Source of the DNA: Gemmatimonadota bacterium
Lineage (GTDB): Bacteria > Gemmatimonadota > Gemmatimonadetes > Gemmatimonadales > GWC2-71-9
Direction of reading: 5' to 3'
DNA length: 41,133 nucleotides
NCBI GenBank assembly: GCA_024641735.1
Contig: JAHECN010000007.1
Location: 1-41,133 of the forward strand
Positions within the stretch are counted from its first letter, which is position 1, and every line of letters starts with the position of its first letter. Under the pieces are notes generated by a model, which did not search any database, was not told where the DNA came from, and saw only the letters and a list, made by a program, of their open reading frames with translations. The translations under genes and the position numbers were made by a program. Positions 17,168 through 38,931 of the stretch are shown here, piece after piece.

Positions 17168-18268
17168 ATGTCGACGATCGAGACCTTTGACGCAATTCTC
17201 CGGAAGGCCATCGAACTCGGTGCGTCCGACGTCCACCTGAGTTCTGGTGGACCCTATCGGATGCGCCTGCGGGGCTCCATGACAACGGTCGCCGGCGTGC
17301 CCGACCTCACCGGCGCGGATGCACGGGCGATCGCAGGGCATATCATGCTGAATGCCCGGAAATCGACTCCGGCCACCATCGAGGCCGAGCTCGATACCCT
17401 GCAGGATGTGGATTGTTCCTACTCGGTGAAGGGTGTCGGGCGTTTCCGGGTCAATCTCTGCAGTCAGCGTGGCTCAATCTCCGCGGTGCTTCGGGCCATC
17501 GCCCACACGATTCCGGACTTCCAGACGCTCGGGCTTCCGGTGGTGTTGGAGAAGATTGCGATGGAGGAGCGTGGGCTGGTGCTGCTGACCGGCACGACCG
17601 GAAGCGGCAAGTCCACGACGCTCGCCTCCATGATCGACTACGTGAATCAGCGGAAGGCGGGGAAGATCGTCACGATCGAGGACCCGATCGAATTCCTCCA
17701 TCGCGACGGCAAGAGCAACGTGATCCAGCGTGAGATCGGGACGGACACCGAGTCGTTCGGTGCCGCCCTCCGCGCGGCACTCCGTCAGGACCCGGACGTG
17801 ATCCTGGTCGGCGAAATGCGGGATCGGGCAACGATTGATATCGCCCTCAAGGCAGCCGAAACGGGACACCTCGTCTTTAGTACGGTGCACACCACCGATG
17901 CGCAGCGGACGATCGCGCGACTGGTCTCGGTGTTCGATCCGAATGAGCAGTACGCCACCAGACTCCGACTCGCTGAGTCCCTTCAGGCGGTGATTTCGCA
18001 ACGGCTGCTGCCCAGGGCTGATGGTCAGGGCCGGGTCGTGGCGACCGAAATTCTTCGGAATACCCAGACGATCGCCGCCTGTATTGCGGACGCGGACATG
18101 ACTGGTGAGATCCGCGACCATATTGCGGCAGGCCGCACGCAGTACGGCATGCAAACCTTCGATCAGCACCTCACGGAGCTGTACAAGGCCGGCCAGCTCA
18201 CGATGGAGGTTGCCAAGGCGGCGGCGACGAGTCCGGCAGACTTCGAGCGGAATCTGGAGTTCCAGTAG
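17168..18268 (+). CDS. pilT: PilT/PilU-family type IV pilus retraction ATPase
   Basis: This hexameric cytoplasmic ATPase drives pilus disassembly and twitching. The protein is 366 residues from ATG 17168; the track ORF begins further upstream at 17117 without support. Motifs are a PAS-like N-domain with ELGASDVHLSSG (17-27), Walker A GTTGSGKST (142-150), Asp box TIEDPIEF (169-176), Walker B DPDVILVGEMRD (208-219) and His box GHLVFSTVHTTD (233-244). The AIRNLIRE stretch typical of PilT is replaced by QTIAACIAD, and the end GMQTFDQHLTELYKAGQL is closer to PilU. No other pilus gene is adjacent. The stop codon lies inside the terminal arm of a heptamer inverted-repeat element. Confidence 0.9.
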   Translation: MSTIETFDAILRKAIELGASDVHLSSGGPYRMRLRGSMTTVAGVPDLTGADARAIAGHIMLNARKSTPATIEAELDTLQDVDCSYSVKGVGRFRVNLCSQRGSISAVLRAIAHTIPDFQTLGLPVVLEKIAMEERGLVLLTGTTGSGKSTTLASMIDYVNQRKAGKIVTIEDPIEFLHRDGKSNVIQREIGTDTESFGAALRAALRQDPDVILVGEMRDRATIDIALKAAETGHLVFSTVHTTDAQRTIARLVSVFDPNEQYATRLRLAESLQAVISQRLLPRADGQGRVVATEILRNTQTIAACIADADMTGEIRDHIAAGRTQYGMQTFDQHLTELYKAGQLTMEVAKAAATSPADFERNLEFQ

Positions 18269-18367
18269 AGGCGAGTCGTGAGTCGCGAGTCATGAGAGCG
18301 CGCTTGAGGCCGGCTCCCAACGTGGGGGCCGGCCTCAAGTCATCTCACGACTCTCGACTCGCCACTA
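18266..18367. repeat. Heptamer-built inverted-repeat element filling the pilT/dcd gap (copy 1)
   Basis: The left arm carries GTCGTGA, GTCGCGA and GTCATGA in tandem after GGCGA. The right arm, read on the minus strand, carries GGCGA then GTCGAGA and GTCGTGA. Both outer ends read TAG(A/T)GGCGAGTCG, so the pilT stop (18266-18268) and the dcd stop (18365-18367, minus) are mirror-image parts of the arms. The centre is a strong stem-loop listed separately. The element occupies the entire intergenic space. It is related to the copy at 38859-38931. Confidence 0.8.
18303..18339. terminator. Bidirectional terminator-like stem-loop between convergent pilT and dcd
   Basis: CTTGAGGCCGGCTCCCA pairs with TGGGGGCCGGCCTCAAG over 17 bp, with one G-U wobble and an ACG loop. 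No long T-run flanks it on either strand. Its position between converging genes supports shared transcription termination. Confidence 0.7.
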
Positions 18368-38858: not shown

Positions 38859-38931
38859 GTCACTGGTCATTAGTCGTTGGTCGTTAGAGACTTACAGTCC
38901 TATCGACTAACGACTCGCGACTTACGACTCA
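38859..38931. repeat. Heptamer-built inverted-repeat element between sucD and ndk (copy 2)
   Basis: Four tandem heptamers (GTCACTG, GTCATTA, GTCGTTG, GTCGTTA) fill 38859-38886. A 17-nt spacer follows, then four on the other strand (CGACTAA, CGACTCG, CGACTTA, CGACTCA) fill 38904-38931. Read on the minus strand, the second arm is GTCGTAA, GTCGCGA, GTCGTTA, GTCG, the same unit as the left arm and as the copy at 18266-18367. The arms can fold into an imperfect hairpin, for example CTAACGAC-type pairing around the spacer. It could end sucCD transcription or be a repetitive element. ndk starts 20 nt beyond its right edge. Confidence 0.8.

Follow-up and report, generated by a model that had tools for sequence, protein, structure and literature searches.

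Stop-codon-anchored hairpins with tandem heptamer arms in a Gemmatimonadota bacterium and replacement of their words at orthologous gene ends of its congeners

REP and BIME elements are dispersed palindromes of gene ends, and omega of pSM19035 is a ribbon-helix-helix protein that binds heptads. The relevant passage of Rehm et al. (2015; PMC4692102) cites an over-representation of heptamers in bacteria, an excess that has no known reason. The sole paired family studied is that of Xanthomonas, in which GGGAATC repeats form approximately 185 arrays per genome, mostly intergenic, with 70-75 close inverted pairs in convergent orientation; they lie on the sense strand close to stop codons, with few between divergent genes, and the pairs have been discussed as G-quadruplexes (Rehm et al., 2015; PMC4692102). 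The GGGGA(C/T)T repeats of Nostoc and the heptanucleotide repeats of Calothrix are characterized, in the passage of that paper which mentions them, as intergenic tandem heptamers with G-rich words (PMC4692102). The TAACTGA repeats of Beggiatoaceae are abundant intergenic heptamers with a patchy distribution across phyla (PMC4679880). Our literature search did not find the word strings reported below, nor any description of paired heptamers beyond that of Rehm et al. (2015; PMC4692102).

Here, we analyse a window of 41,133 nt, the whole of a stretch of contig JAHECN010000007.1 from a Gemmatimonadota bacterium (GCA_024641735.1), together with further DNA of this genome and of its congeners. For one protein of the window, a Gemmatirosa plasmid was the best relative with a name. 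A pilT-family type IV pilus ATPase gene (TIGR01420; 17117-18268, + strand; stop TAG at 18266-18268) converges on dcd, which encodes dCTP deaminase (TIGR02274; 18365-18925, - strand; stop TAG at 18367-18365). A sequence-only reading had taken the entire gap, with both TAG stops, for one inverted repeat, and this proved exact: 18266-18367 is a near-perfect inverted repeat in which TAG-(A/T)GGC-(GAGTCGN)n arms flank a 17-nt GC stem. The left arm (18266-18298, + strand) consists of a TAG-AGGC outer unit that includes the pilT stop, the units GAGTCGT-GAGTCGC-GAGTCAT and an inner boundary, GAGAG; the right arm (18343-18367, - strand) consists of a TAG-TGGC outer unit that includes the dcd stop, followed by GAGTCGA-GAGTCGT-GAGA. 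The outer arms at 18266-18289 and 18344-18367 (TAGAGGCGAGTCGTGAGTCGCGAG and CTCACGACTCTCGACTCGCCACTA) are 88% complementary over 24 nt. Their mirror-image ends, as proposed earlier, hold for TAG-(A/T)GGC read from both sides, but the arms are not letter-for-letter copies, since the N position differs and one inner unit is GAGTCAT. The tandem heptamers do run inward to a 17-bp stem-loop (18303-18339; CTTGAGGCCGGCTCCCA-ACG-TGGGGGCCGGCCTCAAG), whose strands at 18303-18319 and 18323-18339 are 94% complementary over 17 nt and enclose a 3-nt loop.

This inner stem-loop is GC-rich, as is expected of an intrinsic terminator, and is similar to the plain terminators nearby. It lacks a U-tract: a terminator scan that includes the U-tract gave no match in the pilT/dcd region, where the sequence 3' of the stem is TCATCTCACG. 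The predicted RNA fold of the gap reaches -79.9 kcal/mol, compared with -46.5 +- 3.8 for shuffled sequences (z = -8.8; 0 of 200 shuffles as good). Rfam returned nothing above the gathering score, only three miRNA hairpin models far under the threshold. A second member of the family lies in the window between sucD and ndk, at about 38865-38931 (GGTCATTAGTCGTTGGTCGTTAG ... CTATCGACTAACGACTCGCGACTTACGACTC).

The pilT/dcd feature is one copy of a large genome-wide family of gene-end hairpins with tandem 7-nt arms. The draft genome comprises 2.75 Mb in 245 contigs, of which 661 kb (24%) was analysed; the stretches were partly chosen for known arrays, which affects density but not context, and genes were called by a simple codon model. 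Allowing up to three mismatches, the pattern GAGTCGNGAGTCGNGAGTCGNGAG matches the 2.75 Mb genome 254 times (113 + 141), against three times (0 + 3) for the reversed pattern. The earlier suggestion of a repetitive palindromic element, which uniqueness in the genome would have contradicted, is thus borne out by a dispersed word found some 250 times. BLAST with the window element returned 25 further places besides its own two-strand self-match, and when 25 loci were read, most proved to be hairpins of the form (GAGTCGN)n, variable loop and reverse complement. With our own gene calls over 387 kb, 43 of 62 GTCGNKRGTCG arrays were intergenic, as opposed to 0 of 5 reversed controls.

The 7-nt period extends beyond this word. 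Among tandem arrays of any word in this genome, 47 had period 7 (43 of them intergenic) and at most three had any other period from 4 to 12. A detector of mirrored arms found 48 hairpins at lag 7 in the 661 kb, against 1, 2, 0, 0 and 0 at lags 5, 6, 8, 9 and 10; the corresponding figures in 460 kb of the congener G044 were 20 against 0, 3, 1, 0 and 0. Further words occur in this genome (GAGAACR, GATGATG, GAGAGAR, GGGAACA and GAGGGGT), several of which likewise make up hairpin arms, and the loops are unrelated to each other in length and sequence. Some hairpins are concentric, with an outer shell of one word and an inner shell of another: at G000 C189:36920-37032 (L138) a GAGAACA shell lies outside GAGGGGT, and at G000 C9:21276-21457 (L132) a GAGTCGT shell lies outside GTGAGGG and GGGAACA. 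Mirrored arms with another word, GACGAGA, were seen at L165 8381 and L332 711 (G142, G355).

Mapping the copies against gene ends, as the sequence-only reading had advised, places the arms with stop codons. In this genome and G044 together, hairpins occupy 20 of 59 convergent gaps, 36 of 269 codirectional gaps and 7 of 98 divergent gaps, so that convergent gaps are enriched (p = 9e-5 versus the rest) and divergent gaps are under-represented (p = 0.015 versus the rest). Within codirectional gaps of the same two genomes, the stop is nearer to the hairpin than the start in 35 of 36 cases (p = 1e-9). The purine-rich arm comes first in all 68 hairpins of these two genomes and in 16 of 16 of G355, and the 29 pairs of GTCG arrays, those with the GAGTCGN word, all converge and none diverge. 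The rule is looser in Pyrinomonadaceae (33 of 44), and the element upstream of etfB in G274, with the word GGTGAAT, has its arm order reversed.

Stop codons adjoining GTCG pairs are frequently in phase with the array: TAG as TAGTCG in 12 of 16 cases and TGA as TGAGTCG in 9 of 12. TAG accounts for 16 of 32 stops next to these pairs, compared with 150 of 580 genome-wide. A stop within a perfect array is bound to be in phase, so the informative elements are those whose outer units are degenerate, such as TAGARGC-GAGTCG; both ends of the window element have this form. The pilT-family stop is TAG in G369 and G044 (TAA in G164), and the dcd stop is TAG in those congeners for which the end of this gene was read; both window stops therefore probably predate the heptamer array. 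At C229:4187-4207 and C9:38926-38940, some genes extend over several heptamers of an array before the array itself supplies their TGA or TAG stop, so that arrays seem to have overwritten gene ends there. Since 7 equals 1 modulo 3, repeats of GTCGTGA place TGA in every frame, and we considered whether the units serve as all-frame stops. A stop triplet is present in 39 of 68 units against 23 expected from letter permutations, although the units are not independent in this count because words are common to many loci, and the words GAGAACR, GAGAAGC, GGGAACA and GAGAGAR hold no stop triplet.

The congeners are too diverged for empty sites to be recognized at the base level (clean insertion, target duplication), but their orthologous gene ends can be compared. 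In this genome the pilT/dcd gap measures 96 nt; it is 7 nt long in G164, 100 nt in G369, where it contains a plain GC terminator and lacks heptamers, and 131 nt in G044, where no heptamers were found. The sequence-only reading had called for just such a comparison: the plain terminator of G369 and the short gap of G164 fit the addition of arms around a terminator, whereas the core shared by hairpins of G355 (described below) fits the spread of whole hairpins. The sucD/ndk gap of G164 contains an orthologous hairpin of heptamers in which the GTCG arm units are kept and the loop has diverged, while G012 and G030 have short gaps; when array loci of G319 and G164 were compared for orthology, sucD/ndk was the sole pair found in the sampled DNA.

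The 3' end of gltA carries heptamer arms round a GC stem in five species, each with a different word: GAGTCGT here, GATGACA in G044, GTCGTTA/GCTGTTA in G164, GAGAAGC in G274 and GATAGGA in G355. In G012 and G369 the GC stem is present with no clear period-7 arms. As the arms at this gene end remain complementary across species despite their new words, both arms have changed word together and the hairpin has been kept; the predicted folds of the gltA gap have z values of -7.6 to -11. Between sufB and sufC the words are GAGTCGT here, GGTCGTA in G319, GGTGAAC in G274 and GGATGAT in G044 and G164, and the predicted folds are weaker (z = -0.7 to -7.6, with G044 at -0.7 and G274 at -2.2). In this genome the sufB-sufC hairpin (L133, around 2670-2729; C9 42670-42729) probably lies within one operon. 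Upstream of etfB, the words are GAGTCGN here, GATGACA in G044, GTCGTAR in G319, GGTGAAT in G274 and GGATGAT, as a single array, in G164. The conserved property is thus the 7-nt period together with the symmetry and not the GAGTCGN word, a point absent from the sequence-only reading.

The vocabulary differs between genomes. GAGACTA arrays number 158 in G044, 25 in G164 and 0 in eight other congeners, and GATAGGA arrays number 112 in G355 and 0 in nine other congeners; these two sampled words are almost private to a species. GTCGNKR is spread more widely, with 138 here, 75 in G355, 43 in G319, 10 in G164 and at most four elsewhere. Words recur across the loci of one genome but are for the most part not shared with its sister species, a pattern that slippage acting gene by gene would not produce on its own. 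How closely the two arms of an element correspond differs between genomes. When pairs in this genome were chosen by position only, the two arms of an element resembled each other no more than did arms taken from different elements (permutation p = 0.94); since their N letters do not covary, exact pairing is not tightly maintained here, and with the hairpin detector the likeness was weak (p = 0.02). Neighbouring arrays were complementary in 14 of 17 cases in G044, compared with 43% of cross-element pairs, and in 20 of 35 cases here, compared with 33%. In G355, an arm matches its partner better than it matches the arms of other elements (p = 0.0008), rare unit variants are mirrored in both arms (L332, L334, L335), and about nine GATAGGA hairpins (L327-L340) have a common 16-nt apical core resembling AACMRRCATGTTTGTT, in both orientations. 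These sequence patterns suggest arm-to-arm copying and the spread of whole hairpins in at least G355.

The distribution of the elements is patchy. In a phylum survey the word was found in 40 of 395 genomes, and several congeners have no or nearly no such elements, so that the elements are dispensable. Two large-genome relatives of the same class, G311 and G379 (L242-L255), hold hundreds of (GCTGAGT)n matches; the small number of arrays examined there were direct repeats with no paired array. The paired form of the GAGTCGN word was present in 82 stretches of GTDB genomes labelled as Acidobacteria (Pyrinomonadaceae and others), Chloroflexi (Chloroflexales ZM16-3, Thermomicrobiales), Bacteroidetes, Planctomycetes and others. 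Neolewinella aurantiaca and the Chloroflexales ZM16-3 isolate are examples of cultured carriers. Period 7 again dominated in three of these genomes, with 44, 21 and 13 hairpins in stretches chosen for a GAGTCG hairpin. It is possible, and we propose it tentatively, that this architecture (7-nt period, mirrored arms, stop anchoring) is the conserved part of a widespread bacterial gene-end class, in which the word would vary like a dialect from species to species and be exchanged at many loci at once. If so, dialect swapping would imply a dedicated trans-acting writer or reader of 7-nt units and not local mutation; the factor could be an activity for slippage and copying, or a binding protein that evolves along with the word.

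With moderate confidence, we consider the hairpin most likely to be a two-way terminator or 3'-end barrier acting in RNA, with arms built and replaced as 7-nt units by slippage and copying. The termination role is inferred from the placement at stop codons, the preference for convergent genes, the enclosed terminator stems and the rule of purine first and pyrimidine last. A transcript arriving from either side would fold into a long hairpin directly after its own stop codon, with the purine-rich arm transcribed first and the pyrimidine-rich arm last. RNA–DNA hybrids of the rPy:dPu type are the weaker ones, so the last arm would form a weak hybrid that may help RNA polymerase to release. Slippage of 7-nt units and their copying between arms and between loci would make a genome converge on a few words, while sister species drift to others. 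Several observations speak against termination. Some copies probably lie within operons (sufB|sufC), in which strong termination would come at a price, and others occupy divergent gaps. The U-tract is missing, some sufBC gaps with heptamers fold only weakly, exact pairing of the arms is not tightly kept in this genome, several congeners do with few or none of the elements, and the orientation rule has exceptions in Pyrinomonadaceae and G274. The sequence-only reading had offered either an element that inserted or expanded, or a two-way terminator made by repeat growth; the latter fits the evidence best, although the common core of the G355 hairpins would also suit a spread of whole copies.

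Several other explanations were weighed against this two-way terminator. The heptamers could represent repeat growth without function, in which 7-nt units slip, are copied between hairpin arms and loci, and survive mainly at gene ends, where insertion harms least. We regard this as rather unlikely, since neutral slippage would not predict stop-codon anchoring or the purine-first orientation in the genus; the retention of GTCG arm units at sucD/ndk between this genome and G164, despite the diverged loop, and the occurrence of different words at the same sites in several species also speak against it. It would nevertheless fit the same-genus species without elements, the range of the pilT/dcd gap from 7 to 131 nt and the species-private words, as well as a proposal, cited in the relevant passage of Rehm et al. 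(2015; PMC4692102), that 7 nt is the DNA segment held by polymerase. A protein that reads 7-bp units might instead bind the two convergent arrays and so turn them into a roadblock, or into a boundary that separates transcription units. The fixed convergent orientation, the 7-bp period, the N letters without covariation in this genome and the use of one word at many loci, as a trans-acting reader would give, agree with such binding; it is improbable because several unrelated words per genome would require several readers, the arms covary in G355 and change word together, and both stop anchoring and the enclosure of terminator stems suggest action at the level of the transcript.

A hairpin of REP/MITE type, mobile or copied, that inserts near stop codons, with heptamers as secondary expansions, also appears doubtful. 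Although the many copies per genome, the patchy distribution and the common apical core of the G355 elements would suit it, in this genome the loops are unrelated, and the enclosed terminator stems stand alone in sister species. A RAYT/REP origin was rejected because the RAYT-type transposase family PF01797 is no commoner in word-rich genomes (6 of 10) than in word-poor ones (7 of 10), and no match was found among 50,697 phage records. Finally, that the feature is an ordinary intrinsic terminator with a chance resemblance to heptamers is very improbable: the inner GC stem is like its plain neighbours, but the genome-wide counts (the period-7 spectrum and the copy number) refute this as a full account, and the U-tract is missing.

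The elements can be placed among known systems. Like bidirectional intrinsic terminators, they put a GC hairpin between convergent genes, but they differ in the period-7 arms outside the stem and in the missing U-tract. They resemble REP and BIME elements as dispersed gene-end palindromes, although REPs are without heptamer arms and the present family is without a RAYT link. As to a sequence of 20-40 nt conserved across copies, which REPs would have, the loops are unrelated in this genome and a 16-nt core is shared in G355. The omega heptads of pSM19035 parS (PMC9499535) are likewise 7-bp units that follow one another without spacers, some direct and some inverted; they constitute a protein-binding centromere or operator and not a family of stop-codon-anchored hairpins. 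The Nostoc and Calothrix repeats share the intergenic tandem heptamers but have G-rich words, and the corresponding passage reports few inverted pairs for Nostoc (PMC4692102). The TAACTGA repeats of Beggiatoaceae are direct and lie 5' of start codons, with one indirect repeat only (PMC4679880). The word change of sister species at the same gene ends is accounted for neither by ordinary terminators nor by known repeats, and gltA, sufBC, etfB and sucD-ndk are concrete loci for the study of termination and word swapping.

The closest match is the Xanthomonas type, with which the present family shares a tandem 7-nt unit in many intergenic copies, two convergent arrays (29 of 29 pairs) and a position near stop codons with scarcity between divergent genes. 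Nevertheless, there are clear differences. The main units, GAGTCGN, GAGACTA, GATGACA and GATAGGA, contain no GGG, which excludes the proposed G-quadruplex; a single genome has several words, and at a given gene end one word gives way to another from congener to congener; the arms enclose terminator stems, the stop codon is in phase with the array, and other phyla are involved. Because the same architecture is made from non-quadruplex words in several phyla, and sister species differ in the word at shared gene ends, the conserved features (period 7, mirror symmetry and stop anchoring) can be told apart from the word, which is not conserved. The present elements are thus of the same sort as the paired heptamers of Xanthomonas, but they lack G-tracts and bring multiple words, word replacement and enclosed terminators.
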